The notes under the pieces are model-generated. The model worked only from the letters and a program-made list of their open reading frames with translations, was not told where the DNA came from and ran no database searches. From Actinopolyspora alba (GTDB lineage: Bacteria; Actinomycetota; Actinomycetes; Mycobacteriales; Pseudonocardiaceae), in contig NZ_FOMZ01000010.1 in assembly GCF_900112765.1 (NCBI RefSeq), positions 1-64,000 on the forward strand: 64,000 nucleotides of DNA, written 5' to 3'. Each line of letters starts with the position of its first letter. Within the stretch, counting starts at the first letter, position 1. This document shows positions 15,021-51,008 of this stretch, one piece after another. A program made the translations under genes and the position numbers.

Positions 15021-15041
15021 CACGGCCGACCTCTCCAAACG

Positions 15042-32472: not shown

Positions 32473-32486
32473 CCGAAAGGTGAACG

Positions 32487-33648: not shown

Positions 33649-33667
33649 CCGCTGGGGAGCGACACAC

Positions 33668-34915: not shown

Positions 34916-34926
34916 AACGAGCACCC

Positions 34927-35556: not shown

Positions 35557-35581
35557 GCGGCGCGATTCCCGGCGCGGGCGT

Positions 35582-35599
35582 CGATTTCTCGCGAAATCG
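35582..35599. repeat. Dispersed 18-bp palindrome, copy 4
   Basis: CGATTTCTCGCGAAATCG, the inverse orientation of the copy at 14746, 25 bp after the stop at 35556 and between convergent genes. Confidence 0.8.
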
Positions 35600-35679
35600 T
35601 CGGGCGCGAAAGACGACGGGAGCACTTCGCGTACCACCCGAATCGGTTTCCCGACACCCCAGCGCTCCGGGATCCTCAA

Positions 35680-36078: not shown

Positions 36079-36332
36079 GCCGTCCCCGCTTGATCCTCCG
36101 GCCCCGGTGCCTCCCCGCGCGCCTCGTGCACGGCCTCGACGATCTCGTCCATGCTGAGCAGACCACCACCGACCGGTTGCAGCTCGGTCAGTTCGACGTT
36201 GCGCGCGAACCGCGCCTCCCGCTCGAACACCCGCAGCAGGTAGCTCTGCAGCGACTGGCCACTGCGTCGTGCGGCATCGGCGAGCAAGTCGCGGACCTCT
36301 TCGGGAACGTTACGCACGGTAACCGTAGTCAT
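36066..36332 (-). CDS. VapB-type ribbon-helix-helix antitoxin
   Basis: An 88-aa protein. The N-terminal MTTVTVRNVPEEVRDLLADAARRSGQSLQSYLLR is a FitA/Arc-like ribbon-helix-helix, which binds DNA as a dimer and normally autoregulates the pair. The C-terminal half should wrap VapC. A short AT-rich palindromic stretch (ATGCATGCAT) lies around the start codon and may be part of the operator. Overlap with vapC supports tight coupling. Confidence 0.87.
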   Translation of the reverse strand: MTTVTVRNVPEEVRDLLADAARRSGQSLQSYLLRVFEREARFARNVELTELQPVGGGLLSMDEIVEAVHEARGEAPGPEDQAGTACWS

Positions 36333-36403
36333 GCATGCATTCTAGCTGCATTTTGCCATCCCAACAACAGCGTCGAAGCAGCAGCGCTGTCCGACGCGGG
36401 CGT

Positions 36404-36421
36404 CGATTTCCCGCGAAATCA
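36404..36421. repeat. Dispersed palindrome, copy 5
   Basis: CGATTTCCCGCGAAATCA, one arm base off consensus. It lies 81 nt past the MFS stop codon (36502) on the minus strand, at the left edge of the cyclitol cluster. Confidence 0.7.
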
Positions 36422-36501
36422 CCGGGCCGCGGTGCTCGGGAACGGACAAGGGCTTGACGACGGACCGGACCGTCCGACGGTCGTAGCGGGGGAGCGGCTT
36501 C

Positions 36502-37725
36502 TCAACCGGCCTCACCGACGGAAAGCTCCGACTCGGCGGTTCGGTGCGCCACGGGTGCCGAGCCCGAGGTTCTGCTCAACCGATCGATGAGCCAGGCCAG
36601 CGAAAGCGCCACCAGGGTGATCGCTCCGGCCACGAGAAGCACGTTTCGCACACCCCACTGCAGCTCGATCACGGTCCCGCCCATCCAGGCGCCGAACCCG
36701 TTACCGAGGTTGAAGGCCGAGACGTTGGCCGAGAGCGCGAGGATCGGAGCGGCTGCCGACAACCGCAGAATACGAGTCTGCAGCGCCGGTATGATCGCGA
36801 ATCCCGCCGCTCCGAACAGGAAAAGCACAACGGGAACGGCCGGTGACACCGGCAGGAAACCCCAGAACACAACGAGCATGACGGTGAGCACACCGAGACT
36901 GCCGAAAACTCCCACGCTGGTACTACGGTCAGTGACACGTCCGCCGAGAAAGTTTCCGCAGACCGACCCGGCACCGAACACCAGAAGCAGCAGACTCACC
37001 GAGGACGCCGGGTAATCCGCGACGAACCGAAGCAGGGGGGATATGTAGGTGGAGACGGCGAAAACCGAACCCTGGGCGAGCACCGTCACCAGGACCGTGC
37101 CGAGCACGACGGGACGAAGCAACACCCGTGTCTCGGCTTTCACACCGCCCGCTGCCAACTCGGTGGAGCCGCCACGCACGTCCTTCCGGGGAACCTGCCA
37201 GGCGACCAGACCAGTGGCCAGGACCGCCGCCAGCGTGATTGCGGCGAAGGTCATTCGCCAACCGAACGCCTGCCCGATCATCGTCGTCAACGGGACGCCC
37301 AGCACATTCGCCAGGTTGAACCCCAGCGATATGTTGGCTATCGCGGAGGCCTCCTTGCCCGGCGGCGCCATCCCGGCCGCGACGAAGCCGGCCATCGCGA
37401 CGAACGTCCCGTGGCTGAGGGCCGTCAGGAGTCGCGCTCCGACGAGTAGTTCGTAGTTGGCGGCGAACGCGGAGAGGGCGTTGCCGACCAGGAAGACCCC
37501 CATCAGTCCGAGCATGAGCTTTCTGCTGGACACCTTCAGGGTACCGAGCGTGACCAGTGGGCCGAAGACGGCCACACCCACGGCGTAGGCCGTCACGAGC
37601 AACCCGGCCGAGGGAATCGAGACCGAGAGGTCCGCGGCCACTTCGGGGAGGATGCCCGAGAGCGCCACTTCCGCGGTTCCCAGACAGAACACACAGAGCA
37701 TCAGGGCGAGGACGGCGAAAGACAT
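36502..37725 (-). CDS. MFS efflux transporter (DHA1/AraJ-like), cluster exporter 1
   Basis: A 407-aa, 12-TM drug:H+ antiporter-type MFS protein. The N-terminus (LGTAEVALSGILPEVAADLSVS) and TM4-5 region (LTALSHGTFVAMAGFVAAG, GVPLTTMIGQAFGWRMTF) match the arabinose-efflux/CmlA/PbuE group. It is last in the cluster and separated from the hydrolase gene by a strong hairpin, so it may be transcribed at a lower level or separately. It is related to the second MFS protein at 39978. Likely role: export of the cyclitol product or self-protection. Confidence 0.85.
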   Translation of the reverse strand: MSFAVLALMLCVFCLGTAEVALSGILPEVAADLSVSIPSAGLLVTAYAVGVAVFGPLVTLGTLKVSSRKLMLGLMGVFLVGNALSAFAANYELLVGARLLTALSHGTFVAMAGFVAAGMAPPGKEASAIANISLGFNLANVLGVPLTTMIGQAFGWRMTFAAITLAAVLATGLVAWQVPRKDVRGGSTELAAGGVKAETRVLLRPVVLGTVLVTVLAQGSVFAVSTYISPLLRFVADYPASSVSLLLLVFGAGSVCGNFLGGRVTDRSTSVGVFGSLGVLTVMLVVFWGFLPVSPAVPVVLFLFGAAGFAIIPALQTRILRLSAAAPILALSANVSAFNLGNGFGAWMGGTVIELQWGVRNVLLVAGAITLVALSLAWLIDRLSRTSGSAPVAHRTAESELSVGEAG

Positions 37726-37817
37726 CTCCGCGATTCAACTCCCACCAGGTCGTTCGTACGATAGGTCCGACGGACGCGGGGCCGACCGAGGGCCGGCCCC
37801 GGACCGCCGCTTCGACC

Positions 37818-37853
37818 GGGTGGGGGCGGCGTTCGGCGACACCGCCCCCACCC
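37818..37853 (-). terminator. Strong hairpin downstream of the hydrolase gene
   Basis: Perfect 12-bp arms GGGTGGGGGCGG (37818-37829) and CCGCCCCCACCC (37842-37853) with a 12-nt loop, 18 nt past the hydrolase stop on the minus strand. It would stop or attenuate transcription before the last MFS gene. Confidence 0.6.
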
Positions 37854-37871
37854 GTCCACCGAGCCGGTCCG

Positions 37872-38654
37872 TCACTTGAGGAACTCGGAAATGCGCTTGA
37901 CGAGTTCGTCGGATTTTTCCACCACGACCAGATGACCACTCTCCAGCTCGACGTAGTCACTTTGGCCGATGGACTGATGCAGCTGCTTCGCGTGTTCGAC
38001 GGGGATGAGCTGATCGTGTGAACAGCCGATGACCAGTGTGGGAGCGATCACGTCCCCCACCGAATCGCTGATGTCGATCCTGCTGTTCAGCTCGATCTGC
38101 CGCAGTGTCGCCGGAGTGAAACCGGTACCGGAAGCCGCTTCCTCCAGACCCGCGTCGCCGAGACCGTTCATGAACGACCTGGTGAAAAGCAGCATGGTTA
38201 CGAACCGCGAGTACGCTTGCGGATCGGTGTCGGCCAGCCTGCGCCACAGGTCGAAGACCAGCCGCTGCCTCGGGTCCATGGTGACCCATCCCGCAACGAG
38301 AACTACTCGGCGGAACAGGTTCGGATACTTGGCAGCCGCCGCCGCGGTGACAACAGCGCCCAGCGAATACCCCACCACGTCCACGGGTTCGTCGAGTTCG
38401 GCCGCGCGGGCCGCGGCCACAACCTGTTCCACCAGCTGATCCAGATCGAGTTCCCCCGGATCGACGGTGTCGTCATCGCTTCCGGCGTAGTCCGGCACGA
38501 TCGTGGTGTGATCGGGGGTGAAACTTTCCAGCAGGTGTCCGAAGTTGGCGTCCCCCGTCGCTCCGGTGCCGTGCACCAACAGCAGACCGGGGCCTTCCCC
38601 CTCGATACGCACCGGCACCCGCTTACCAGCCGCTTCAACGTACTGCACGTTCAT
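37872..38654 (-). CDS. Alpha/beta hydrolase in the cyclitol cluster
   Basis: A 260-aa alpha/beta hydrolase: oxyanion region LLLVHGTGATG near 26-36, nucleophile elbow VVGYSLGAVV with Ser97, acid in GCSHDQLIPV and His in LESGHLVVVE near the end, so the triad is complete. ATG 38654 has AGGAGG 8 nt upstream; a TTG two codons earlier is less likely. In this context it may remove or move an acyl group placed by the two membrane acyltransferases, or act as an esterase for product release. Substrate unknown. Confidence 0.82.
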   Translation of the reverse strand: MNVQYVEAAGKRVPVRIEGEGPGLLLVHGTGATGDANFGHLLESFTPDHTTIVPDYAGSDDDTVDPGELDLDQLVEQVVAAARAAELDEPVDVVGYSLGAVVTAAAAAKYPNLFRRVVLVAGWVTMDPRQRLVFDLWRRLADTDPQAYSRFVTMLLFTRSFMNGLGDAGLEEAASGTGFTPATLRQIELNSRIDISDSVGDVIAPTLVIGCSHDQLIPVEHAKQLHQSIGQSDYVELESGHLVVVEKSDELVKRISEFLK

Positions 38655-38734
38655 TTCCAAAACCTCCTAGAGAAACAGAGTTCAATCGTCCGCAAAAGAC
38701 GTGTCGCGAAACACGGGCAGGCGTAAAACCTACG

Positions 38735-39937
38735 TCAGAGCCGTGCTTTCTCCCCGGCAGGGGAATCCGATTCCCGTCCCACCATGGGCTTGGCGAGAAA
38801 ACTTCCGCCGCCGCCACGAGGACGTCCCCAACGACGCATGGCGGGCTTCTCCACGAATTTGTGCACCAGCCATCCGACCAACAGCGTGACAAAGAAGAGC
38901 CCCAATAGGACGAGAGTGCCCACGGGAGTGCTGAACAGACGGGCATCCATCTGCTGTCGCAGATAATATATCACAACGTACTGCGCGAGATAAAAACCGA
39001 AGGAAACCTCACCGAGCCAAATCATGGTGCGACTGCGCAACACGCTCGGCCGCCCCTCTATGTCCGCGGTCGCGGCGGTACACACCAGTACGACGATCGG
39101 AACGATGGTGGCCACGTTGAGCCCGTACAACCACGGCACGACCATGGCGAGCGCGTATCCCGCCACCGCCAGTACCGTCGCGTGAACGAATCCGACCGAG
39201 CGGAACCACATTCCGGACATCACGATTCGCGCCAACAGCATCCCCAGCACGAACTCGAAAAGTCGCACGGGAGGGAAGTTGTAACCGAACCAGAACTGCC
39301 AGACCGACACCGGAAACCCTTCGGGGGTCTGCGGGGTGTCGGGAAGCACGAACTGGGTGAAAACCTGGACACCCACCATCCCCAGGATCATCAGCCCGGC
39401 GTACGACCAGAGGCGTTCCTGCCTGATCCGCACGACGCCCTTGATGATGAACGGGAAGCACATGTAGAAGAGCAGCTCGCTGCACAACGACCAGCTCGGC
39501 GGGTTCACGCTGATGAAGATCTCGTGCTGCGGGAACCAGGAGTGGATCAGGAAGAGGTTCGGCAACCACTGGTGTGGATCGGAGGCAGCGGCGGCGAACA
39601 GTATCATGGCCAGCGCCCAGGTGACCACGTGCGCCGGGAAAATCTTCACCAGACGCCTTCGCCAAAATCCTCCCATCGTGTCAGTGGAACGCGCTGACCA
39701 CGTCAGCACGAAGCCACTGAGCACGAAGAAGAAGGACACTCCCATCCAACCCGCCTTACTGAAGAGCGTCTGATAGAGATCGGACGCGAACGGGTCTGCG
39801 TATGGGTTCTGCGGCGGATCCGTCAGCGAGGCGTGGAAGAAAAACACCATAGCCGCCGCTATGAATCTCATCCCGGTGAGCGAGGGTAACCTCGAATAAG
39901 CCGAGTAGGCTCTCTCACCAATTACCGAGGACGACAT
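38735..39937 (-). CDS. Membrane acyltransferase, OafA/YrhL family (1)
   Basis: A 400-aa acyltransferase-3 protein with about 10 TM segments. It starts RLPSLTGMRFIAAAMVFFFHASL, where the family catalytic His lies, and contains NPPSWSLCSELLFYMCFPF and TMIWLGEVSFGFYLAQY. The family transfers acetyl or other acyl groups from inside to sugars or natural products at the membrane. A close paralog lies at 41256 with the same motifs. No extra SGNH domain is attached, so it is the short form. Likely O-acylates the cyclitol (inference). Confidence 0.88.
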   Translation of the reverse strand: MSSSVIGERAYSAYSRLPSLTGMRFIAAAMVFFFHASLTDPPQNPYADPFASDLYQTLFSKAGWMGVSFFFVLSGFVLTWSARSTDTMGGFWRRRLVKIFPAHVVTWALAMILFAAAASDPHQWLPNLFLIHSWFPQHEIFISVNPPSWSLCSELLFYMCFPFIIKGVVRIRQERLWSYAGLMILGMVGVQVFTQFVLPDTPQTPEGFPVSVWQFWFGYNFPPVRLFEFVLGMLLARIVMSGMWFRSVGFVHATVLAVAGYALAMVVPWLYGLNVATIVPIVVLVCTAATADIEGRPSVLRSRTMIWLGEVSFGFYLAQYVVIYYLRQQMDARLFSTPVGTLVLLGLFFVTLLVGWLVHKFVEKPAMRRWGRPRGGGGSFLAKPMVGRESDSPAGEKARL

Positions 39938-39977
39938 ATCGCTCCCTTATCAGCATTTTCTGCGACTCGAACCAAAA

Positions 39978-41177
39978 TCAAGTGACTTCTTTTTCCGTCA
40001 TCCTGCTTCGCGAATCAGCACGAGAGGCGTCGGTGTCCCCGCGCTCCAGAAGCACGGTTATCACGATCACCGACATTCCCGCGATCGCGAGAACCGCGGC
40101 ACCGATCGGAACGGTCCGCACACCGACACCGAGCTCGATTATCTTTCCGCCGTACCAGGAACCGATCGCGGCACCCAGACCGAATGCCGACATGTTCACG
40201 GTCAACGAAAGGGTCGGAGCCTCCTCCGCAGTTTTCACCACTCTCGTCTGCAGGCACGGGATCAGCGCGAACGTCACCAGCGCGAACACCAGCAGCACCG
40301 GAATCATGGCACTTCGCGAGAAGGTTCCCAGCCAGCAGAGGAGGCAGGTCAGTGTCAGCGACCCCGACAGAACCGCCGTCGCCGCGGACAGGGACTTGTC
40401 CGCCAGCTTGCCTCCGACGGAGTTGCCGATCACGGAACCGGCCCCGTAACCCAGCAACAGCAGGGGAACCACCTCGGCCGGAAACCCCGCTCCCCTGGTC
40501 AGCAACGGGGCCAAGTACGTGATGATCGTGAACATTCCGGCTGAGCACAGCACGGTCGCGACCACCGTGGTGACGACGTTCCACCTGCTGAACGCCCGGA
40601 CCTCGGACCGCACGCTCGAGGACTCGGGCGTGCCCGAGTCCGGTACCGTGATCATGATGAGCACGGCGGCCAGTACCGCTATGACGCACACCGCCGCGAA
40701 ACTCGAACGCCAACTGAGCCGTTGTGCCAGCAACGTCCCGAACGGAACCCCCAGCACGGTCGCCAGATTGATACCCAGCTGCACCCCGGCCACGGCGCTT
40801 CCGGACTTGTGAGCCGGGACCATGCTGCCCGCGGTGACGACGCTGACGGCCATGAAGGTTCCATGGGTAAGAGCCGTCAGCACCCGGCCGATCAGGACCA
40901 CCGTGTATCCGGGGGCCGCGGCTATGATGCCGTTGCCGAGCACGAAGATCCCGAGCAGTAACAGCAGGATCCTCTTCCGCGTCATCGCCGTGGTGGCCGC
41001 CGAGACCAGCGGACCACCGACAGCCATCGTCAGGGCATAAACGGTCACGGACAGTCCGGCGGTCGCCAGACTGATGTCGAGTCCTCCCGCCAACTGTTCG
41101 AGCATTCCGCTCGGCATGAGTTCCGACGTACCCACCCCGAAGATGGCCACGATCAGACCGACTATCCGCAGATACAC
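39978..41177 (-). CDS. MFS efflux transporter, cluster exporter 2
   Basis: A 399-aa, 12-TM MFS protein of the same DHA1 subfamily as the one at 36502: VGTSELMPSGMLEQLAGGLDISLATAGLSV parallels that protein's start, and LTALTHGTFMAVSVVTAG parallels its TM4. It sits between the two acyltransferase genes, 40 nt from one and 78 nt from the other. Each acyltransferase is therefore paired with an exporter, suggesting an ancient duplication of an acyltransferase-MFS unit. Confidence 0.85.
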   Translation of the reverse strand: MYLRIVGLIVAIFGVGTSELMPSGMLEQLAGGLDISLATAGLSVTVYALTMAVGGPLVSAATTAMTRKRILLLLLGIFVLGNGIIAAAPGYTVVLIGRVLTALTHGTFMAVSVVTAGSMVPAHKSGSAVAGVQLGINLATVLGVPFGTLLAQRLSWRSSFAAVCVIAVLAAVLIMITVPDSGTPESSSVRSEVRAFSRWNVVTTVVATVLCSAGMFTIITYLAPLLTRGAGFPAEVVPLLLLGYGAGSVIGNSVGGKLADKSLSAATAVLSGSLTLTCLLCWLGTFSRSAMIPVLLVFALVTFALIPCLQTRVVKTAEEAPTLSLTVNMSAFGLGAAIGSWYGGKIIELGVGVRTVPIGAAVLAIAGMSVIVITVLLERGDTDASRADSRSRMTEKEVT

Positions 41178-41255
41178 GAGGTCCCCTTGTCACATCTCGT
41201 AACGTTCCACGAGAACAGCCGAGGCGATTCAGCCTACAACCGAATTTCCGCCCGG

Positions 41256-42512
41256 TCACCGATCAGCGGTCGCCGAGCTCCTGCTCTCGTTCTCTCCGAC
41301 AGCGGAATCCACTGTCCTTTCGTTCCGGGAATCCCCAGCTCCCAAGCTTTCCGCGGCAGTTGAGTTCCTCTTGCCGAAACCCTTCTTCTTCGGTTTCGAC
41401 CAGTGTTTCGTCGTGGGCTTTTCCACGAACTCGTACAGCGCCCAGGCGAGCAGGATGCTCAGCACGAGATAGAGCAGGAGAACTCCGGTCGCCAACGGAG
41501 TACCGAAGTAACTGTCTCCCAACAACTCGCGTCCCGTGACGAGCACTATGGCGTGCACCAGGTAGAAGGCGAAGGAGATCTCACCGAGCCATACCATGGT
41601 GCGGCCGCGGAGGAACGAACGCTCACCTCGAACATCGGACGTCGCGACCGCCGGGATCAGCAGTGCCAGCGGAACGATGCACACCGCGCGCATACCGTAG
41701 AGGTAGGGCACGAACAGGGAAACGGTATAGCAACCGAGCAGCGCCAACACCAGTGGACCGATCCCGACACGCACCCACCTTCCGGCCAGCACGATGCGGG
41801 CCAGCAGTATGCCGAGGAAGAAATCGAACAACCGCAGCGGCGGAAAGACGTAGTTCACCCAGTACTGGTAAGTGGAGATCGGGAGGCCGTCCGGTGGACG
41901 CGGATGCTCCGGCAACAGGACGTAGGCCACCAGGGCGGTGATCGCCACCAACGCCACGGTCAGCCAGACGAACCACCACAGATACTGCTCGCGAATTTTG
42001 CGCGCGACCGCGAACACCAGCGGAAAGAGCAGGTAGAAGGCCACTTCGGTGGACAACGACCAGCTCGGCGGATTGACGCTGAGGTAGGTGTCGTACTCCG
42101 GGATCCACGCCTGCACGAGAAACAGGTTGGCCACGGCCTGGTAGGGGTGCGTGTAGACGGCCGCGAACAGCAGCAGCGCAACAGCCCACGTCACCACGTG
42201 ATTCGGGTAGATCTTGACCAGCCTGCGGCGCCAGAAATCCACGTTGCGGTCGTGCGGCTTGTACGACCAGGTCATCACGAAGCCGCTCAACACGAAGAAG
42301 AACGTGACGCCCGCCGCACCGGCCTGGGACATGATCTTCTGGTACGTGTCGGCCACCCCGTCGTGCGCGAACACCGAATTGGCGGGTATCTGCAGTGAAG
42401 AATGGAACCCGAAAACCGCCAGCGCCGCGAGGAAACGCATCCCGGTCAAGGAGGGTAATCGAGATCTACGTCGATCCGATTCCGACTTGGCTTTTTCTTC
42501 CACAACCGTCAT
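41256..42512 (-). CDS. Membrane acyltransferase, OafA/YrhL family (2)
   Basis: A 418-aa acyltransferase-3 protein. RLPSLTGMRFLAALAVFGFHSSLQ, NPPSWSLSTEVAFYLLFPLVFA and TMVWLGEISFAFYLVHAI match the paralog at 38735 in the same order. About 10 TM segments, ending in a basic, Ser/Glu-rich tail of ~45 residues. I chose ATG 42512 (MTVVEEKAKSE) with AGAAGTGAAAG before it; the in-frame start at 42551 lacks a good ribosome site. Probably acts on the same product as its paralog, on another position or with another acyl donor. Confidence 0.87.
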   Translation of the reverse strand: MTVVEEKAKSESDRRRSRLPSLTGMRFLAALAVFGFHSSLQIPANSVFAHDGVADTYQKIMSQAGAAGVTFFFVLSGFVMTWSYKPHDRNVDFWRRRLVKIYPNHVVTWAVALLLFAAVYTHPYQAVANLFLVQAWIPEYDTYLSVNPPSWSLSTEVAFYLLFPLVFAVARKIREQYLWWFVWLTVALVAITALVAYVLLPEHPRPPDGLPISTYQYWVNYVFPPLRLFDFFLGILLARIVLAGRWVRVGIGPLVLALLGCYTVSLFVPYLYGMRAVCIVPLALLIPAVATSDVRGERSFLRGRTMVWLGEISFAFYLVHAIVLVTGRELLGDSYFGTPLATGVLLLYLVLSILLAWALYEFVEKPTTKHWSKPKKKGFGKRNSTAAESLGAGDSRNERTVDSAVGENESRSSATADR

Positions 42513-42560
42513 ACTTTCACTTCTTTCGTGTAGTAATTCCAGGAATCCCACCCGGGGTTC

Positions 42561-43463
42561 TCAGGGAACCAGAATCAGTTTTCCCCTGGTTCCACCGTTT
42601 TCGAGTGTCCGATGTGCCCAAGCTGCTCGCTCGAAGTCGACGACAGCCGAGGGTTTACCCGGTTCGACAATTCCCTCGTCGACGAGAGTTCCGAGTCGGG
42701 CGAGTTCGTCACCGTCCTGCTCCACACCGATCAGCACGATCCGCACTCCTCGACTCGGTTCCGGTTGCGCGAACGGTGTCGTCGTGAGGTATCTCCCCTC
42801 GTCGCACACCGACCGAAGGTGTTCCGGGACTCCAGCGGTGTCGACGACCGCGGCGAAACCGGCGGGAGGTGGTGGGTGTTCCTCGGAGTACTGCCGCAAC
42901 ACACCCCGGGGCGGTTTCCGGGTCACGTCGCTCGGCCGCACGAAAGTCGAGATCCGCCAGCCGTTCAGCCGGGCCAGTTGAACCACGAGGCTGCCTACCG
43001 CGCCCTGTGCCCCCACGACCAGCAATTCCTCCGCTCCGTTCGAGGGGGAACCGAGCTCGGCCACGGTCTGGGAAGCGGTCAGTCCCGCCAACGGCAAGGC
43101 AGCCGCTTCCACCTGATCGAGCTCACGTGGTGCGGGCGCCAGGAGACTCTCGGGCAGCGCCACGTACTCGGCGTGGGTTCCCCGTCCGGTGGCTGCCTGC
43201 GCGGACATGGCGATGACCGGATCCCCCACGTCGAACCGCGTCACGTCCTTCCCCGCATCGCGTACCGTCCCGGAGACGTCCCACCCCAGTAAGGCCGGGA
43301 GGTCGGTCGGCACCGTGCCGTTTCGCGTCGCCACGTCTATCGGGTTCACCCCGGCGGCTACCACCTCGATCAGAACGTCACCGGCACCGACAGCGGGGGC
43401 CTCGACCCGCTCGACGCCGACAACCTCCGGGCCCCCGGTTTCCTCGATTCTTACCGCACGCAT
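42561..43463 (-). CDS. Zinc-free MDR oxidoreductase (quinone oxidoreductase-like)
   Basis: A 300-aa medium-chain dehydrogenase/reductase without zinc ligands. AAGVNPIDVATRNG and LLGWDVSGTVRDAG are typical of NADPH:quinone oxidoreductases; the coenzyme loop is VVGAQGAVGSLVVQLARL. Families like this reduce quinones or enones. In a cyclitol pathway an enone reductase acting on a dehydrated ring ketone is one possibility (inference). GGGGA lies 5 nt before the ATG. Its upstream neighbour is the zinc dehydrogenase, 25 nt away. Confidence 0.85.
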   Translation of the reverse strand: MRAVRIEETGGPEVVGVERVEAPAVGAGDVLIEVVAAGVNPIDVATRNGTVPTDLPALLGWDVSGTVRDAGKDVTRFDVGDPVIAMSAQAATGRGTHAEYVALPESLLAPAPRELDQVEAAALPLAGLTASQTVAELGSPSNGAEELLVVGAQGAVGSLVVQLARLNGWRISTFVRPSDVTRKPPRGVLRQYSEEHPPPPAGFAAVVDTAGVPEHLRSVCDEGRYLTTTPFAQPEPSRGVRIVLIGVEQDGDELARLGTLVDEGIVEPGKPSAVVDFERAAWAHRTLENGGTRGKLILVP

Positions 43464-43488
43464 TTCATCCCCGTTCGTGAGATACGTT

Positions 43489-44538
43489 TCAACGGATATT
43501 CAGCAGAACCTTCGGGCGGTCCCGCCCGCTGTCGTTCAGTCTTTCGAATGCCTTGTCCGCTTCGTGAAAAGAGAACGCTCGATCGATCATCGGTTCCAAC
43601 CGGAGATTTCCCGAAGCGACCTCTTCCAGTAACTGCGGCCAGTGGTCCGCTCCGGACAGAACATTGTGCGTCACCAGGTTTTTCCCCACCGCTTCGTCGA
43701 CGGGGACGGCATCGACCGGCCCGTGGGGCGTACCGAGTTGCGCCAACCGGGCGTTCTGGCCGCAGAGCCGGATCGCTTGACGCACCGCCTCGCTCGCACC
43801 GGATGCCTCGACAACCACGTCGTAGTTACCGCTGCGCACCTCGTCGGGAGCCGCGACGCGGTCTGTCCCCAGTTCGGCTGCCAGGGAGGCGAGCCGGGGA
43901 TTGGGGTCGAGAACCGTCACACTCGCACCTCGCGAAACGGCCAACTGGGCGGCCGCCAAGCCGAGTGTTCCGGCTCCGAGAATCGCGACGCTGTCCGCTC
44001 CGGAAATCGCGAGCCGTCGCAGGGCGTGTACCGATGCGGAGCACGGCTCCAGCAGGGCAGCAGCACGATTGTCTACTCCGTCCGGGATCCGGTGGACCGT
44101 CTCGGCGGGCACGGAGAGATACTCCGACGCGGCGCCCGGCTCCTCGCCGACAACCCCCATCTCGGTGCGGTACGGGCAGTGAAAGGTCCCGCCCGCCGCA
44201 CAAACGGCACAGCTTCCACAACGTCTGAAGTTGTGCCCGGACACCCGATCGCCTTCCCGCAGGCCGGTAACGCCCTCGCCGGTGAGGACGATTTCTCCGC
44301 TCCACTCGTGACCGAGTACGAACGGATAGCTCTTGCGACCGGTGTGCAGGTAACTACTGGTACCCGTGTAGAAACCCAGATCCGTGCCGCAGAGACCGAC
44401 GTGTTCCACCGCGACGAGACAATGGCCCGGCGCGGGCTCGTGCACTGGCAAACTGCGGTGCGCGAGCCGTCCCGGAGATTCCAACACGAGAGAAACCGTG
44501 GCGGTCGACAGCCGACCGGAAGGTGTTTTTTGAGTCAT
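43489..44538 (-). CDS. Zinc-dependent alcohol/polyol dehydrogenase (complete zinc sites)
   Basis: A 349-aa MDR enzyme. Catalytic zinc ligands: Cys50 (GLCGTD), His77-Glu78 (LGHEWSGE); structural zinc: Cys107, Cys110, Cys113 and Cys121. The NAD loop is AILGAGTLGLAAAQLA. It resembles sorbitol/threonine-type dehydrogenases and could oxidise a ring hydroxyl of the cyclitol. ATG 44538 chosen; GGGGAG is only 2 nt upstream, so the start could be the ATG at 44571. A 102-nt gap separates it from the coupled six-gene core, leaving room for an internal promoter. Confidence 0.88.
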   Translation of the reverse strand: MTQKTPSGRLSTATVSLVLESPGRLAHRSLPVHEPAPGHCLVAVEHVGLCGTDLGFYTGTSSYLHTGRKSYPFVLGHEWSGEIVLTGEGVTGLREGDRVSGHNFRRCGSCAVCAAGGTFHCPYRTEMGVVGEEPGAASEYLSVPAETVHRIPDGVDNRAAALLEPCSASVHALRRLAISGADSVAILGAGTLGLAAAQLAVSRGASVTVLDPNPRLASLAAELGTDRVAAPDEVRSGNYDVVVEASGASEAVRQAIRLCGQNARLAQLGTPHGPVDAVPVDEAVGKNLVTHNVLSGADHWPQLLEEVASGNLRLEPMIDRAFSFHEADKAFERLNDSGRDRPKVLLNIR

Positions 44539-44640
44539 GTCTCCCCACAAATGGTTTACGAACCGATCCATGCGAAGAATCGTCACCTACCGCAGCGATC
44601 GGTCCGACTCAGCGGAACCGAACAGGCATGAATCGAGTAA

Positions 44641-45297
44641 TCATTCGAACGATATTCCGACCCGCCCGTCCTCGTCGAAACCGGCGACACTTATCGCGTG
44701 GAAATCCCTTATTCCGATACGTCCCGCGGCGGAGGCGCGGTCGTGGGATCCCACGACCACCGGAGTCGTGCCGGCCGCCTCCGCTGCCAACAGGCCGGAT
44801 TCGGCATCCTCGAACACGACCGTGGAGGACGGCGGCACTCCCAGCAGCTCCGCCGCCTTGAGGTATCCCTCGGGGTCCGGTTTTCCGGAGGAGATGTCGT
44901 CGGCGGTCACCAGTACGTTCGGGAGTGGTATTCCCGCTGCCTCCATCCGCCGTACGGCCAGCTCGCGGCTGGCTGAAGTAACCACCGCCATGCGGGATTC
45001 GGGAACGTGGCGGAGGAACTCCGCCGCCCCCGGCACCTGAACCACACCCTCGATGTCCTCGACTTCCTCGGCCACGAGGGTCGCGGTCTCACGCGCCACG
45101 TCCGCCCCGTCGGGGGCGAAACGCAGCACGGTCTCACCGGTGGGGCGCCCGTGCGCGTCGGCCAGCACTTCCGAGGCGTCGATTCCGTGCCTACGGGCGA
45201 AACGTCGCCAAGTGCGTTCGACCACGACCGTTGAGTCGACCAATGTACCGTCCATGTCGAACAACAGGGCGGAGAAATTCAGAAACACGTGCATCAC
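44641..45297 (-). CDS. HAD-IA phosphatase of the cyclitol core operon
   Basis: A 218-aa HAD protein with a helical cap: motif I LLFDMDGTLVDS (nucleophile Asp14, acid Asp16), motif II VVTSAS, Lys in SSGKPDPEGY, motif IV VVFEDAESGLLAA. It belongs to the sugar-phosphate phosphatase/beta-phosphoglucomutase-like group; the cap lacks obvious mutase hallmarks, so a phosphatase is likelier. It starts within the TIM-barrel stop (ATGA). With the ROK kinase at the other end of the operon it suggests a phosphorylated intermediate that is later dephosphorylated, as in known C7-cyclitol routes (inference). Confidence 0.87.
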   Translation of the reverse strand: MMHVFLNFSALLFDMDGTLVDSTVVVERTWRRFARRHGIDASEVLADAHGRPTGETVLRFAPDGADVARETATLVAEEVEDIEGVVQVPGAAEFLRHVPESRMAVVTSASRELAVRRMEAAGIPLPNVLVTADDISSGKPDPEGYLKAAELLGVPPSSTVVFEDAESGLLAAEAAGTTPVVVGSHDRASAAGRIGIRDFHAISVAGFDEDGRVGISFE

Positions 45298-46127
45298 CCG
45301 CTGTCTCCGGTCTTCGTTGGAACAATCCGATCCGCGAACCGACGAGCGGCCGCTACATCGAGGCCGATCACACGGGGATCGGCGACGCGATAGTCGTTCT
45401 CGAGAATCAGCCAGTTCACCGACACCCCGCTTCGCGCGAATGCGCGCGACAGTTCAGTGGAGCGGATTTCTCCGGAACCACGCCACTCGTCTCCGAGTCC
45501 GAGCGGCCCGTCCTTCAGGTGAACCTGGTCCGCGATACGCGGCCCCAGGGTTCGGACGAGTCCCGGTACGTCCGTCCCTTCCACGTCCGGGTTCCCGGTG
45601 TCCAGCACGAGCCTGAACGAGTCCGATCCGACCCGCTCGAACAGTTCGACCGCCGTCGTGGGCGACAGCACGTTCTCGTTGGCCAGCACCAGGTTCCGGG
45701 TCCGAGCCTCCTCGGCCGCCCACCGCAGTACGCTGACCGTCCGATCCAACGCTTCCGGACCGTCGATCGTGCTGGCACGAAAGCTCGGCACAAGGACCAG
45801 TCGCACGCCGAGAGCCACGGCCGAGTCGAGCAACGCGATCACCGCGCCGCGGGCACTCCGTGCCGCCCGGCTTCTCTCCGGCGCGGTGAGGCCGATGTCG
45901 TTGAGCAGGTTTCCCGCCACCGCCAACAACTCGACTCCCGAACCGTTGGCTTCCCGGCGAAGCGAGCGCGCCCTGCCGGGGGTGTCCAGCGGCACCCCAC
46001 GCCCCGAACCTCCGAAGTCGAGTTGGATCCCCCGGACACCGTAGGAGGCGGCCAGCTCGACCGCTTCGGCCCCACGAACCGGCAGACGCCACTCGGCCAG
46101 CCCGATCGCTGGATTCCCGCCGGTCAC
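45294..46127 (-). CDS. TIM-barrel sugar-phosphate isomerase/epimerase
   Basis: A 277-aa protein of the xylose-isomerase-like/AP-endonuclease-2 fold: GIQLDFGGSGRG (strand 2), LVLVPSF, LANENVLSP with metal-binding Glu, LVLDTGNPD with Asp, and DQVHLKDG with His. These positions match the divalent-metal site of the family. Substrates are sugars or inositols. In this operon a C2- or C5-epimerisation or isomerisation of the cyclitol or its phosphate is likely. It overlaps both neighbours by 4 nt. Confidence 0.83.
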   Translation of the reverse strand: MTGGNPAIGLAEWRLPVRGAEAVELAASYGVRGIQLDFGGSGRGVPLDTPGRARSLRREANGSGVELLAVAGNLLNDIGLTAPERSRAARSARGAVIALLDSAVALGVRLVLVPSFRASTIDGPEALDRTVSVLRWAAEEARTRNLVLANENVLSPTTAVELFERVGSDSFRLVLDTGNPDVEGTDVPGLVRTLGPRIADQVHLKDGPLGLGDEWRGSGEIRSTELSRAFARSGVSVNWLILENDYRVADPRVIGLDVAAARRFADRIVPTKTGDSG

Positions 46128-46891
46128 GATCCCGCTCTCCGACTCTGCGAGACGGGAGCCCCCGAGGACAGCGAGCGCCAGTCGCCTCCGGAACCGACCA
46201 CGAGGCTGTCTCCCTGGAATTCGACTCCCCTGGTTCGCACGAGCTCAGCGGCGAGCGGCGCGAAGGTGTCGGGAGTCATGTAGGAGCTGAAGTCGAAATC
46301 CGAGGACCGCCTGCGGCGTATGCCGGGGGTGTCCACCATCCCCTCGGGCAACACCTGAACGATCCGGATCTCGTCCGTGCTCTCCTCCAACCGAACCGAA
46401 TCGAGCAGGGCCGCCCCTGCCGCCTTCGTCGCGGCGTAGCCGGACCGCATCGGTCCGGCATTGTGGACGACTTCGGAGGAAACCCCCACGAAGAGCCCCG
46501 GAGCTGAGGCACGCAACGCGGGCAGCGTCGCGCTCAGGGTCAGCCACAGCCCGTGGAGGTTTATCTCGAACTGGGTTCGCCATTCCGCTTCGGTGACCTC
46601 GCCGAGCGGAGCGCGCTTCGCCCCGTAGTCGACGGCGGAGAAACACACCGCCCACAACGGATCGACCGCGAGGTCGGCGAGCCGCTCCTTCGTCTTCGCG
46701 GCATCGAGGAGGTCCAACGGTTCCCAGCGAAGGTTCGAGCTCGACGCATCGGAGGGTTCACTTCGGCTGAGTACGACGACATCCATTCCTTCGGCGGCCC
46801 AGGCGTCGGCTATTCCCCTGCCGATACCGGTGGAGCCGCCGACAACCAGGGCGCGCTTCCCTGCGGGGGATTCGTCATCGGACTGCGTCAT
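46124..46891 (-). CDS. Short-chain dehydrogenase/reductase
   Basis: A 255-aa classical SDR. Coenzyme loop VVGGSTGIGRG (16-26); catalytic Ser138/139 in GVSSEVVHNAG, Tyr152 and Lys156 in YAATK. The usual NNAG motif is replaced by FSAVDYGAK near residue 84. LSRS at the end of the second strand suggests NADP preference. It begins at ATG 46891 that shares one base with the upstream dehydrogenase stop (TGATG). A ketone/alcohol step on the carbocycle is expected. A longer frame to 47311 is antisense noise of the dehydrogenase. Confidence 0.88.
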   Translation of the reverse strand: MTQSDDESPAGKRALVVGGSTGIGRGIADAWAAEGMDVVVLSRSEPSDASSSNLRWEPLDLLDAAKTKERLADLAVDPLWAVCFSAVDYGAKRAPLGEVTEAEWRTQFEINLHGLWLTLSATLPALRASAPGLFVGVSSEVVHNAGPMRSGYAATKAAGAALLDSVRLEESTDEIRIVQVLPEGMVDTPGIRRRRSSDFDFSSYMTPDTFAPLAAELVRTRGVEFQGDSLVVGSGGDWRSLSSGAPVSQSRRAGS

Positions 46892-48027
46892 CAGTCGTTT
46901 CCTTTTCGACAGGTCGGTGACATCCGGACAGCCAGCTTGATCATTCTTCGGCCCTCGGCGATTCGTTCGTTGCCGCAAGCGAGGTCGCTCATGATTCGTG
47001 ACGCGTATTCGAGATCCCCGATATGGGTGATCAGCTCCCGGTATCGCTCCGGGCTGCGGACCAGTTCGGAGACAGCCGTGCCGAGGTGAGCGTTGGACAC
47101 CCCCCGATGGCCGAACAAGTTGATCCGACTTCCCGTTGTCGCGGTGCGTTCGACAGTCAAGGGGACATCGGGCCGCCCGGCGAGGTTCGCCGCCCGGATT
47201 CCCGCTAGATCGGTTCCGGGAAGGCTTTTCACGGTAAGTCCGGGGGGTACTCCGCCGATGACGTCGATGACCGAACCGTCCCCGACGGAACGCAGCACTC
47301 GTTCCAGGCAAGGCCCCGTGCTCTCCCGCGGGGTGGCCAGCAGGACTCCGACCGGCCCATCGTGCAGCACCCCCGTCATATCCTCGCCGTCCACGAGAGA
47401 GTCATCGGGTGGAAGTCCGGAGCGCAGTGTCCACTGCCTGCCCGATTCACCGTGGTGCACCAACACGGTCCGCTTCACGGTCGTCGCCCATCTTGCGGCT
47501 GAGCGAACGGCCAGCTGCCCGATGGTTCCGTCCCCGACCACCAGCAGTGTCGACGGCCGAAACCGGCTCAGCGCCCGTAGCGCGTAGTTGACCACCGCCA
47601 GTGGCTCCACCAGCGCGGCGAGCTCAGCTTCGGGGCGCTGATCCAGTCCGAGGACCAGGCCTGCTCGTGTCGCGGTGGCGGGCACGAGGGTCCGTCGCTG
47701 CAACAACCCGTCCACGTTGTGTCCGAGGAGGAAACCCGGATCGTTCGGATGGGTGGGGTTGATCACGACAGCATCCCCCGGCGAGAACGAGTCCCGGATC
47801 CCCTCTCCGACCGAGACCACCGTCGCTATCCCTTCGTGCCCCAGCACGGAGGCCGATTCCTTCCGGGAACCGCGCAGTATCTGGATATCGGTGCCGCAGA
47901 GTCCCGCGACCTCGGTGGCCACCACCAACTCGCCCGCGGCCGGGACCGGGGTCGGACGTTGCCGTACCGTGACGCGAGCTCCCGCTCGGACGAGTGCGTT
48001 GTTGCGGGGTTGTGCGTTTCCCGTCAC
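46891..48027 (-). CDS. MDR dehydrogenase lacking the structural zinc cysteines
   Basis: A 378-aa MDR protein. Catalytic zinc residues remain (Cys44 in GLCGTD; His64-Glu65 in LGHEGI), but where the four-Cys structural lobe should be it reads NPTHPNDPGFLLGHNVDG, without any Cys. The coenzyme loop is VVGDGTIGQLAVRSA. A ~20-residue tail has RRMIKLAVRMSP. GTG 48027 overlaps the ROK stop (GTGA); the frame upstream to 48138 has no family match. Substrate is probably a cyclitol; related proteins with the same deletion are known among sugar-alcohol dehydrogenases. Confidence 0.85.
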   Translation of the reverse strand: MTGNAQPRNNALVRAGARVTVRQRPTPVPAAGELVVATEVAGLCGTDIQILRGSRKESASVLGHEGIATVVSVGEGIRDSFSPGDAVVINPTHPNDPGFLLGHNVDGLLQRRTLVPATATRAGLVLGLDQRPEAELAALVEPLAVVNYALRALSRFRPSTLLVVGDGTIGQLAVRSAARWATTVKRTVLVHHGESGRQWTLRSGLPPDDSLVDGEDMTGVLHDGPVGVLLATPRESTGPCLERVLRSVGDGSVIDVIGGVPPGLTVKSLPGTDLAGIRAANLAGRPDVPLTVERTATTGSRINLFGHRGVSNAHLGTAVSELVRSPERYRELITHIGDLEYASRIMSDLACGNERIAEGRRMIKLAVRMSPTCRKGND

Positions 48028-49115
48028 GATTCCACCCCGATCCTGGCCGAACGTCCGGATCCGACCGCGGCGACACCGGCTCCCACCAGGCCATCGGCCT
48101 CGGAACTGTCGCAGCGCACGAGGCGCTCGGCTAGCCATTCCGGGTGAAATCGACTCGTCAGGTAAACACCGTCCCTGGTCAACCGCTCAGCCAGCGCGCG
48201 GTGATAGTGCTCGCCGAGACCGTCCACGACTCCCCCGGTGAGCGCGATCCGATCTATGGAGGGATCCAGACACCAGGCGGTTCGCAGTACATCCGCCAAC
48301 GGCGACGTGGCCGCGTCGAGGATCTCCCGGGCGAGCGGATCATCGTCGTCCAGGAGTCGGCGGAACGTACTTTCGAACTCGATGTCCTCGTCGAACAGCG
48401 GTGAGACGGCACAGCGCCGCGGTTCCAGCTCGCGGAGTCGTTCGGCCAGCCGGCGGATCCCGGGCCCCGAGGCGAACGCGGCCAGATGGTCCGGGCTCCC
48501 GCAGTCACAGTTCAGCTCCACCCGATTTCCCGCGAGAGTGGTGCCGGAGGGGATATGACCGATCTCCCCCTGGAGACCGCAGACGTCGACCGGGATGGTT
48601 CGCAGTCGACGATCCACCAGCCTGCACGCGATACCACTGCTCACCGTAACGAGGAGGAGCCGACGAAACCCGTCGAACCGCGGCGTCTCCCCCAGTCCGA
48701 GCAGTGCCGCTGTCACGTCGTTGACCAGGTGCCAATCGACGTCCGGCCTTCGCTCTCGCAACCCGGCCAGCAGGTCGAATCGAGTCACGCTGTCACCCCA
48801 GAGCGGAGCGGAAGCATATACCACACCACTGCGCTGATCCAGCGCCGCTCCCAACGAGATACCGGCTGTGGTGCCCTTTTCCTGGCCCACCCCGGCGCAT
48901 ATCTCGTCGATCAGCCGCGTTCGAAGTTCGTCGGCGCCCGCGTCCGGGTGAACGAGAACGCTCGGCGAAGGCTTGGACCACATCCGACGCACTCCCGATT
49001 CGGGAGACCAACGGGCACACCGGAAGTGAGTACCACCGATGTCGAACACCACGGCCTCACGCGCGGCACTCGCGGCGCCCGTATGTTCGTCCTGGAACGT
49101 CTCCGGCACTGTCAT
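48024..49115 (-). CDS. ROK-family sugar/cyclitol kinase
   Basis: A 363-aa ROK kinase. The ATP phosphate loop is VVFDIGGTHFRCARW (23-37); VNDVTAALLG carries the catalytic Asp; GEIGHIPSG and NCDCGSPDHLAAFASG give the zinc-binding signature, here C-x-C-G with the third Cys replaced by Asp-His. TGGVVDGLG is the adenosine loop. In acarbose biosynthesis AcbM, a kinase of this superfamily, phosphorylates 2-epi-5-epi-valiolone at C7; the same role here follows from its place right after the cyclase. Both ends overlap neighbours by 4 nt. Confidence 0.87.
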   Translation of the reverse strand: MTVPETFQDEHTGAASAAREAVVFDIGGTHFRCARWSPESGVRRMWSKPSPSVLVHPDAGADELRTRLIDEICAGVGQEKGTTAGISLGAALDQRSGVVYASAPLWGDSVTRFDLLAGLRERRPDVDWHLVNDVTAALLGLGETPRFDGFRRLLLVTVSSGIACRLVDRRLRTIPVDVCGLQGEIGHIPSGTTLAGNRVELNCDCGSPDHLAAFASGPGIRRLAERLRELEPRRCAVSPLFDEDIEFESTFRRLLDDDDPLAREILDAATSPLADVLRTAWCLDPSIDRIALTGGVVDGLGEHYHRALAERLTRDGVYLTSRFHPEWLAERLVRCDSSEADGLVGAGVAAVGSGRSARIGVES

Positions 49116-50341
49116 CGCGCGCTCTCCAGCACATCCGAGTCAGCCGCTCGATGATCCCGATGGGCCACGAACGACAACGCCGCTTGCAGCTCGTCGGCGG
49201 TGATGTCGTTCACGAACACCGCTGAACCGATACCTGCCGTCAGCGGCATGCGCTGGTAGCCATCCCTGTGTTTGACGGCGTCCTCCAGCGCACGTTCCAA
49301 CAACTCCGCGGTGAATACGGGATGAGTGAGCGGCAGTCCCGCCGCGTTCATGAGCGTGAGTGCCCGGTCGGCATCCTGCTCCGACAGCAGGCCGCGGTTG
49401 CGGGCCAAAGCGACGCAGATGGCCATGTCCACGGCCACCGCTTCCCCGTGCAGCAGCGGAGGGTCGGCACGGAGTTCGAGCGAGGGACTGAAAGTGTGGC
49501 CGTAGTCGACGGCCCTTTCGAGTACCTTCTCCCACAGGTTCGGCTCGAGTTCGTCCAACATTCCCGCGATCGAGCGGGACAGGATCTCACCACCGGCCGG
49601 ACCGCAGTCGGCGAGCGTTTCCGGATCGATCGACGCGACGGTGGCTTCGAGCAGATCGAACAGCTGGGAGTCCTTGATCAGTGCCATCTTGATGATCTCG
49701 GCCAGCCCGTTGTTGATGTGCCTACGATCCACGGTGCGCAGGAACTCGGGGTCGATGAGAGCCGTTTCCGGAGCACAGTACGTTCCGAGTCGATTCTTGT
49801 GCTGCCCGTGATTTATGCCGGTCTTGACGCCGATTCCCGCGTCGACCTGGCCGATCAGAGTGGTGGGAACCCGAATGTAGGGAACACCTCGGCGGTACAG
49901 GCTCGCGGTCATACCGACCACGTCGAGCACCACTCCGCCGCCGATCGCCACGATCTTCTCGGCACGGCGGAGTATGCCCATCGAACTCATGTCGTCCACG
50001 AGCCCGAGAGCCGTGTCGAGTTGCTTCGTGTTCTCGTCGCCGGGGACGACTCTCCAATTGTGTGCTATCCGCCAAGCCGAGAAGTAGGCACGTAACCGTT
50101 CGCCGTAGAGCTGCTCCACGGCATCATCCACCACCACCAGACAACGAGTCCTGCGCTTTCCATCGGCACCGCAGGCATGGGCGAACGTGGAGTTCGATGT
50201 GGACAGCAGTCCACGGGTCATGCTCACTTCGTAATCCACCACCTGCTGGGACCGGACTCGCCAGCTGACCCCCGGGGGCTTGGGAAGGTCGAACGCGGCG
50301 GTGATGCTCGTCGGTGTTGGATTGACAGTGGGAATGGACAT
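49112..50341 (-). CDS. Sedoheptulose-7-phosphate cyclase, 2-epi-5-epi-valiolone synthase type
   Basis: A 409-aa protein of the dehydroquinate-synthase superfamily. The NAD loop is IGGGVVLDVVG (133-143). Metal ligands are Glu215 (NGLAEIIKMALIKD), His282 (VDYGHTFSPSLE) and His298 (LLHGEAVAVDM). VDAGIGVKTGINHGQHKNRL and the LYRRGVPYIRVPTTL segment are nearly those of AcbC and ValA, not of AroB. It converts sedoheptulose-7-P to a C7 cyclitol. 2-epi-valiolone synthase is a close sister family that I cannot exclude by eye. The ATG has only a weak ribosome site; the operon promoter should lie in the AT-rich spacer upstream. Confidence 0.9.
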   Translation of the reverse strand: MSIPTVNPTPTSITAAFDLPKPPGVSWRVRSQQVVDYEVSMTRGLLSTSNSTFAHACGADGKRRTRCLVVVDDAVEQLYGERLRAYFSAWRIAHNWRVVPGDENTKQLDTALGLVDDMSSMGILRRAEKIVAIGGGVVLDVVGMTASLYRRGVPYIRVPTTLIGQVDAGIGVKTGINHGQHKNRLGTYCAPETALIDPEFLRTVDRRHINNGLAEIIKMALIKDSQLFDLLEATVASIDPETLADCGPAGGEILSRSIAGMLDELEPNLWEKVLERAVDYGHTFSPSLELRADPPLLHGEAVAVDMAICVALARNRGLLSEQDADRALTLMNAAGLPLTHPVFTAELLERALEDAVKHRDGYQRMPLTAGIGSAVFVNDITADELQAALSFVAHRDHRAADSDVLESAR

Positions 50342-50560
50342 CGAGAGCTCACAATCCGTTGAAAGTCGATTCGTACAACTGTCCGATCACGGGGTAATCA
50401 CCCCGCACGCGCTCGACCCGCGAACACGGGCGAGACAGGTAACGGAGCGGATCAGTCCCCCATCGCTCGTCCGGTGGGCTCCACGGGCGAACGGGCTTCG
50501 CTCCCGTTACCGCGGGCTCCCTCGCGGCCGCCTCCGGGGTTTCCGGCTGCCGCACCGCCT

Positions 50561-50585
50561 CAACAAAAATAAAACCGCTCGGTTT
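50561..50585 (-). terminator. Small hairpin with T-rich tail, minus strand
   Basis: On the minus strand AAACC-GAGC-GGTTT is followed by TATTTTTGTTG, the layout of an intrinsic terminator with a weak stem. It could end transcription from manC before the cyclitol operon begins. Confidence 0.4.
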
Positions 50586-50606
50586 GTTTGTTCAAGACAA
50601 AAAAAC

Positions 50607-50620
50607 GTGATATAAATCAC
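50607..50620. promoter_or_regulatory. AT-rich inverted repeat, candidate operator
   Basis: GTGAT-ATAA-ATCAC, a perfect 5-bp inverted repeat, 266 bp upstream of the cyclase start. It is the only such AT-rich dyad facing this operon and could bind a regulator encoded elsewhere. Confidence 0.4.
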
Positions 50621-50769
50621 TATTTACTACAGCTTTCAGCAGGTCGCGAAGAGCGCCCCGCGAGCCTGCGTCGACACCGCAAGTCAGCGGAATTAGCAGC
50701 AAAAAACAGCTATAACAGGCACTCCGCGCACGACCCGACGTCAAGAGTTACCCGAAGATGAACCACAAG

Positions 50770-50797
50770 AAAAAAATACCTAACAGTATGTTTTTTT
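50770..50797. terminator. A-run/T-run hairpin
   Basis: AAAAAAATAC, a 6-nt loop, then GTATG and TTTTTTT; the stem ATAC/GTAT plus A/T pairs with one bulge can act as a terminator on either strand. It lies about 210 nt past the manC stop. Confidence 0.4.
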
Positions 50798-51008
50798 GAG
50801 TTAAAACCGACCGGAGCACTGAGCCTCTCTCCTGCACAGACCGGAACGGAACCCGGCGAACCGGCAGGTGGTTTCGGCTACACCCGAACCCTCACGTACC
50901 ACTGTGTGGTTCGAGAGGCCAGTCAACCCGTCGGAAACGAACTCATCGACGATGAAGGACGAAGGGCTCCGGAACGGCAAGCGGGCCTCAACCACGTCGC
51001 CCCGGAGT

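Follow-up and report, generated by a model that had tools for sequence, protein, structure and literature searches.

The DNA analysed here, called the window throughout, is a stretch of 64,000 nucleotides from Actinopolyspora alba (assembly GCF_900112765.1, contig NZ_FOMZ01000010.1, positions 1 to 64,000 of the forward strand). It contains a genomic island with 13 genes, all on the minus strand, which is built around a predicted 2-epi-5-epi-valiolone synthase (EEVS) and through which the cell probably makes and exports a valienol-type C7 carbasugar that is acylated and free of nitrogen. An earlier note, made from the letters alone, had described a 13-gene C7-cyclitol cluster at this site. All 13 open reading frames (ORFs), their coordinates and their Pfam families were confirmed. 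The features are as follows.

36372..51008, no strand assigned: whole island, about 14.6 kb, absent between conserved flanks in seven congeners
50342..51008, minus strand: intergenic region of 667 bases upstream of gene 1, presumed promoter region
49112..50341, minus strand: gene 1, predicted EEVS of the AcbC/ValA type, 51% identical to the EEVS of an acarbose-type cluster
48024..49115, minus strand: gene 2, ROK kinase, AcbM counterpart, 51% identical to the acarbose-type ROK protein, predicted 7-O-phosphorylation
46891..48027, minus strand: gene 3, MDR dehydrogenase, AcbL counterpart, 52%, predicted conversion of 5-epi-valiolone 7-phosphate to valienone 7-phosphate
46124..46891, minus strand: gene 4, SDR, AcbN counterpart, 61%, predicted conversion of valienone 7-phosphate to valienol 7-phosphate
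45294..46127, minus strand: gene 5, xylose-isomerase-like TIM barrel, AcbO counterpart, 49% with the same Pfam domain, predicted 2-epimerase
44641..45297, minus strand: gene 6, HAD phosphatase (HAD_2), presumed to release valienol from its 7-phosphate
43489..44586, minus strand: gene 7, zinc-type MDR polyol dehydrogenase (MDR2), with CGSCAVCAAGGTFHC and GHEW in the translation
42561..43463, minus strand: gene 8, quinone/enone-reductase-type MDR (MDR3), by family match
41256..42551, minus strand: gene 9, membrane acyltransferase AT3a (PF01757, 114 bits)
39978..41177, minus strand: gene 10, MFS exporter a, best NCBIfam model Cmx/CmrA at 273 bits, below its cut-off of 400
38735..39937, minus strand: gene 11, membrane acyltransferase AT3b (PF01757, 99 bits)
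37872..38660, minus strand: gene 12, alpha/beta hydrolase, esterase-like, best solved match 8qzu (deposited as a carboxylesterase, 186 bits)
36502..37725, minus strand: gene 13, MFS exporter b, by family match

The Pfam assignments of genes 1 to 13 read, in order, DHQ_synthase/DHQS_C, ROK, ADH_N (MDR), adh_short (SDR), AP_endonuc_2 TIM barrel, HAD, MDR, MDR of the quinone-reductase type, Acyl_transf_3, MFS, Acyl_transf_3, alpha/beta hydrolase and MFS. Neighbouring genes overlap by 1-4 bases across genes 1-6, which therefore look translationally coupled; genes 7-13 come after these at spacings of 9-146 bases. Gene 3 most likely starts at the GTG at 48027, in a 4-base overlap with gene 2 (the listed ORF extends to 48138), and gene 4 most likely at the ATG at 46891. 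No regulator family in Pfam was matched by the 13 proteins. The same holds for aminotransferase, nucleotidyltransferase and glycosyltransferase families, whose absence from the 13 proteins had been claimed in the earlier note. No match was obtained when the PDB was searched by sequence with AT3a (E 0.01), the ROK kinase and the TIM-barrel protein. MDR3 matches chain 4ida (Ripening-induced protein) across residues 20-300 of 300.

The best solved match of gene 1 is 4p53 (396 bits), which is ValA of the validamycin pathway (PMC4426668). It is followed by 5tpr at 240 bits, deposited as a 3-dehydroquinate (DHQ) synthase, by further DHQ synthases at 145 bits or less, and by 2-deoxy-scyllo-inosose synthase at 95 bits. 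We take 5tpr to be a sedoheptulose cyclase of the DDGS type. Glu215, His282 and His298 as well as the motifs DYGHTFSP and LLHGEAV, on which gene 1 had been called a sedoheptulose 7-phosphate cyclase, are all found in its protein, which agrees with ValA in enzyme class, in metal ligands and in residues of the EEVS type. In the alignment with ValA, the segments ELEPNL, DYGHTF and KHRDG correspond and place Leu, Asp and His at three positions. These are presumably ValA Leu267, Asp281 and His360, where DDGS would have Glu, Ala and Thr. Against the aroB model TIGR01357 the protein scores 226.5 (cut-off 305), and a second gene of the DHQ-synthase family, presumably aroB, lies on another contig of the genome. 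The assignment of gene 1 as an EEVS is thus supported by homology.

Genes 1-5 are, by sequence comparison, the counterparts of the acarbose cassette C-M-L-N-O. The comparison was made with a genome (G816) from a family search of 354 genomes, 27 of them with a match; a smaller family search of five genomes, two with a match, did not include the acarbose-type genome. G816 holds two EEVS loci. In the first, the order ROK, MDR, SDR, TIM barrel, EEVS corresponds to window genes 2, 3, 4, 5 and 1, with identities of 51, 52, 61, 49 and 51%, and the neighbours of this block are a class III aminotransferase, two GT5-type proteins, an NTP transferase, a HAD protein, a GH77 protein, a PfkB kinase and an amylase. 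The locus is read as acarbose-type because these neighbours fit the published operon acbVUSRPIJQKMLNOC (PMC7682106). The second locus, with ROK and MDR genes alongside, fits a counterpart of the extra operon Acpl6249-6251 reported in strain SE50/110 (PMC3364876), and G816 appears to be Actinoplanes sp. SE50/110 or a close strain. When the proteins of genes 2-5 were aligned with the acarbose-type proteins and other relatives, many residues were invariant (one relative's row for gene 5 is incomplete).

The reactions of AcbC, AcbM, AcbO, AcbL and AcbN have been reported, ending at valienol 7-phosphate (PMC9200736, PMC7081202), and dephosphorylation of this compound to valienol is reported as well (PMC7081202). 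With the five families adjacent in the window and the M-L-N-O order kept as in acarbose, the route in the window should also lead to valienol 7-phosphate. In acarbose formation, valienol 7-phosphate is described as being converted to the 1,7-diphosphate, then dephosphorylated, nucleotidylated and coupled (PMC9200736). The island differs from the acb cluster in that the AcbR, AcbS/AcbI, AcbV and AcbK (PfkB) families are unmatched among its 13 genes, that its EEVS gene stands at the front whereas that of acb comes last (M-L-N-O-C), and that gene 6 is of the HAD_2 subtype in place of the Hydrolase_3 of the acarbose-type cluster. It has acyltransferases, a hydrolase, two more MDRs and MFS exporters instead. 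More generally, pseudo-oligosaccharide clusters such as those of acarbose and validamycin contain an aminotransferase, a cyclitol nucleotidyltransferase and a pseudoglycosyltransferase, none of which is among the 13 genes; validamycin couples two cyclitols via nitrogen, whereas no coupling enzyme family was matched in the island.

The boundaries of the island were obtained by searching 10 Actinopolyspora genomes with the NTP transferase that lies directly upstream on the same strand (51009-52112). The island is carried by three of them (the genome of the window, G180 and G369), and the site is empty in the other seven, where the flank matches lie 24-468 bases apart; in the window the distance between them is 14.6-15.4 kb. 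From this comparison of empty and filled sites, the 13 genes are a single insertion of about 14.6 kb, with the NTP transferase and a nearby upstream GT2 gene on the same strand (53190-54287) outside it. The NTP transferase is present in all 10 genomes, including the seven without the island, in which the sequence next to it runs on into the left flank of the window; it is therefore presumably a housekeeping gene. The G+C content of the island is 63.9%, compared with 68.0 and 68.9% in the flanks, and in G180 all 13 genes are matched at 96-100% identity (locus L033). Among named genomes, A. righensis is the relative. No direct or inverted repeats of at least 10 bases are common to 36201-36560 and 50901-51060. 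The WXG100/T7SS-signal gene region that adjoins the island at 32400-36371 has extra copies or rearranged parts in congeners.

In the proposed pathway, the EEVS would convert sedoheptulose 7-phosphate to 2-epi-5-epi-valiolone, the ROK kinase would phosphorylate O7, and the TIM-barrel epimerase would yield 5-epi-valiolone 7-phosphate. Dehydration to valienone 7-phosphate by the AcbL-type MDR and reduction to valienol 7-phosphate by the AcbN-type SDR would follow, both presumably with NADPH as the favoured cofactor, as in AcbL and AcbN. The HAD enzyme of gene 6 may then remove the phosphate to give valienol (C7H12O5). MDR2, of the zinc type, and the enone-reductase-like MDR3 may adjust the oxidation state of the ring, the two AT3 enzymes may esterify hydroxyl groups, and export of the ester may fall to the two MFS proteins. 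Trimming or removal of an acyl group, for activation or self-protection, is the probable task of the hydrolase. Five counterparts of acarbose enzymes, the gene order, the island boundaries and the co-conservation are read from the sequence; the reactions in Actinopolyspora, the acyl group with its position, and the roles of genes 6-13 are inferred. An acylated, nitrogen-free carbasugar had already been predicted in the earlier note. It is a reasonable prediction and the best guess, because the aminotransferase, nucleotidyltransferase and glycosyltransferase classes are missing.

Gene content was compared by tblastn in 68 loci, as a simple gene finder missed genes in G+C-rich loci. The set comprises 26 of 30 from a scan of named genomes, 19 of 51 places from an order search, 7 of 8 new places from a class search, 13 of 30 places from the family search and 3 of 20 plasmid hits. 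At the thresholds used, the order, class and family searches had matches in 49 of 397, 10 of 394 and 27 of 354 genomes, and from these searches the regions surrounding the higher-scoring matches were taken. L053, which comes from the genome of L033, was excluded, as were L036, three weak matches from archaea and those matches for which the locus at hand was short. The set leans to close relatives and holds near-duplicates (L033/L034 and L074/L099), and some loci end at contig ends (e.g. L061, L068, L079). The tblastn references were few: the glycosyltransferases of L101 and a class IV aminotransferase near L094 were missed, as was the AT3 gene of L075, which was seen by Pfam.

Homologues of M, L, N and O were all four present in 29 of the 68 loci, and three of the four in a further eight, Pseudomonadota included. 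Among the 29 full-core loci the window order C-M-L-N-O was found in 21 and M-L-N-O-C in two. Together with the match of genes 1-5 to the acarbose order at 49-61% identity, these counts show that the earlier note went too far in finding no known cluster to match. The class III or DegT aminotransferase references matched a single full-core locus, that of the acarbose type; where fewer than three core genes are present, they matched in 9 of 31 loci. The full-core plasmid locus L101 has annotated glycosyltransferases, and the class IV aminotransferase near the cluster of L094 stands beside an isocitrate/isopropylmalate-dehydrogenase gene and is perhaps a housekeeping gene. A second MDR (C6) was found in 13 of the full-core loci. 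AT3 matches occur in 7 of the full-core loci and in 10 of all 68 by tblastn, with L075 added by Pfam. A beta-lactamase-fold protein is present in 10 of the 68, seven of which also have branched-chain keto-acid dehydrogenase genes; by Pfam, L071 and L075 likewise have decoration proteins of the branched-chain keto-acid dehydrogenase or beta-lactamase-fold type.

AT3, hydrolase and MDR2 genes together with the EEVS and all four core genes were found in L033 and L034 of Actinopolyspora, which are near-copies of the window, in L035 of another genus of the same family, and in L093 and L094 of one genus in a distant family. The latter two have two AT3 matches each and an MDR3 match in a different gene order by tblastn (Pfam confirms one AT3 each). 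A tree built from 66 EEVS rows places the window in a group of 28 (support 100/99) that also holds Streptomyces, Actinokineospora, Saccharothrix, Pseudomonadota and a strain that bears the label Nocardia sp.; the EEVS of the acarbose-type cluster belongs to a different group. The EEVS of L093 and L094 stands outside the 28-row clade, which suggests that the AT3/hydrolase/MDR2 set was reassembled or exchanged. In the 29 loci of the clade, no match to the DegT, class III aminotransferase or GT5 references, the transferase types covered, was obtained in a looser scan at E 1e-3. AcbR-type matches occur in the clade only in two Actinopolyspora loci, at the position of the upstream NTP transferase, and a TreT-type glycosyltransferase in one locus.

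The reading of the island as a source of an exported valienol-type ester is supported by the acarbose-type core, by the confinement of all 13 genes to one island that is missing at its site in 7 of 10 congeners, and by five of the 68 loci, from three genera, in which AT3, hydrolase and MDR2 accompany an EEVS and a complete core. Several points weigh against it. AT3 enzymes also acylate envelope glycans and macrolides, so that their substrate is not fixed by sequence, which likewise does not tell what acyl group is attached or where. Gene 6 is not an ortholog of the acarbose-type HAD protein, given the HAD_2 and Hydrolase_3 assignments. The hydrolase in L093/L094 is just 25-27% identical to gene 12, and the EEVS of these two loci lies outside the clade of the window. 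AT3 is present in just 7 of the 28 clade rows (six by tblastn including the window, L075 by Pfam), and AT3 acylation therefore does not characterise the clade as a whole. In addition, an aminotransferase or NDP-sugar enzyme of housekeeping metabolism could act in trans.

Acylated, nitrogen-free C7 carbasugars are a chemistry already known. Crotonyloxymethyl trihydroxycyclohexenone (COTC) is described as such a compound from Streptomyces (PMC2635666), and KD16-U1 and the gabosines are reported as nitrogen-free C7 carbasugars of Streptomyces. All are nitrogen-free C7 compounds like the predicted product, and COTC is acylated. A narrower form of the proposed reading, which we regard as unlikely, is that the end product is an electrophilic cyclohexenone ester of the COTC/gabosine type. 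MDR2 would turn valienol into an enone by oxidising an allylic hydroxyl of the ring, AT3 would esterify the hydroxymethyl group, and MDR3 and the hydrolase would tailor the product or protect the producer. Oxidation of the valienol hydroxyl beside the hydroxymethyl-bearing carbon would give the ring connectivity of COTC, a reference title names KD16-U1 as the precursor of the glyoxalase I inhibitor, and the match of MDR3 to 4ida points the same way. We take 4ida to be a strawberry enone oxidoreductase. Against this form, the stereochemistry may not fit, and the AT3 sequence does not give acyl specificity. In searches of the openly licensed PMC literature neither a COTC/gabosine gene cluster nor a paper on a gene cluster like the island was found.

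It is similarly doubtful that valienol or a near derivative is exported unacylated, with AT3 acting elsewhere, for example in self-protection at the cell envelope. AT3 proteins are broad in substrate, and AT3 was unmatched in 12 of the 13 full-core loci that combine the other MDR (C6) with an MFS exporter. However, both AT3 genes lie inside the island, each adjoining an MFS gene and AT3b also the hydrolase gene, and AT3 occurs near an EEVS in the loci counted above. Distinctly less probable is a product that receives nitrogen or a sugar from enzymes encoded elsewhere, such as the adjacent NTP transferase or an aminotransferase of housekeeping metabolism. The position of the NTP transferase and GT2 genes just upstream on the same strand speaks for it, as do the glycosyltransferases of L101 and the class IV aminotransferase near L094, both loci outside the clade. 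Against it stand the presence of the NTP transferase in all congeners with or without the island, the unmatched class III, DegT and GT5 references in the 29 clade loci, and the restriction of AcbR-type matches in the clade to the place of that upstream gene in Actinopolyspora. As genes of the cluster, the NTP transferase and GT2 were ruled out, lying outside the island, the former in 10 of 10 congeners. Finally, a cyclase that yields DHQ within a shikimate-type pathway, for which the DHQ_synthase Pfam domain of gene 1 would speak, is exceedingly improbable and was rejected on match scores led by ValA (some 250 bits higher than 3zok, which ranks first among the DHQ synthases once 5tpr is set aside), on the aroB score below its cut-off, and on the separate DHQ-synthase-family gene, with the Leu, Asp and His seen at the three presumed EEVS positions in agreement.

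The biosynthetic core is already known as the valienol 7-phosphate module of acarbose, and the cluster has relatives. New are the predicted acylation and export branch, the clean island in Actinopolyspora, and a cross-phylum EEVS clade unmatched by aminotransferase and GT5 references. The valienol 7-phosphate cassette emerges as a reusable module that, among the loci compared, stands mostly outside aminocyclitol clusters. An orphan cluster is turned into a testable pathway with valienol as a named intermediate, and candidate genes emerge for COTC-like acylated carbasugars. Should the product be an allylic ester, it could inhibit glycosidases covalently; synthetic cyclitols that carry an allylic leaving group are reported to act in this way (PMC10131216). 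A bolder and rather unlikely extension is that of a family of nitrogen-free valienol esters, in which the acyl group on an allylic oxygen is a leaving group and the glucose mimic a covalent inhibitor or prodrug, with the hydrolase and the enone reductase protecting the producer. Such a family would share one EEVS clade across Actinomycetota and Pseudomonadota and carry interchangeable decorations (AT3; the beta-lactamase-fold enzyme with branched-chain keto-acid dehydrogenase genes; a second MDR; a TreT-type glycosyltransferase).

Ten Streptomyces loci of the same EEVS clade (L054, L057, L060, L063, L065, L067-L070 and L078) have the beta-lactamase-fold enzyme, accompanied by a BBE-type oxidase in nine, branched-chain keto-acid dehydrogenase genes in seven and an aldo-keto reductase in six. 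These loci could make branched-acyl carbasugars. In L135 (genome G859, 6639-15683) and L043 (G162), the EEVS, the valienol cassette and a HAD gene adjoin a TreT-type glycosyltransferase; they are possible valienol/streptol-glucoside clusters of other actinomycetes. Streptol/valienol and streptol glucoside of Candidatus Burkholderia kirkii, examples of such cyclitols with no amine coupled to them, are described as tied to an EEVS-bearing plasmid (PMC8599487, PMC10131216). This valienol-type C7 cyclitol is glucosylated, whereas the island product is predicted to be acylated. The 20 plasmid hits did not include plasmid pKIR01.

The core is also carried by loci of Pseudomonadota (L099/L074, L072, L073, L076, L077 and L079, the last with a cut-off part only), and the names of several of these bacteria point to an association with plants or insects. 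An MFS exporter and a divergent LysR-type gene accompany the core, in most cases along with a second MDR. The core of Agrobacterium vitis VAR03-1 is on a megaplasmid. In L076, from a Pantoea insect symbiont, the ROK and SDR homologies are each in two pieces and a stop lies within the EEVS slice, so that the operon looks broken. A different EEVS cluster on the Streptomyces clavuligerus megaplasmid (L100) has a DegT aminotransferase, ROK, MDR, ribulose-phosphate 3-epimerase, HAD and GNAT genes and is probably of the C7N type. In L095 and L139 the EEVS lies near MDR3-like genes, with AT3 in the former and MFS and MDR2 in the latter, while the rest of the valienol cassette is unmatched.

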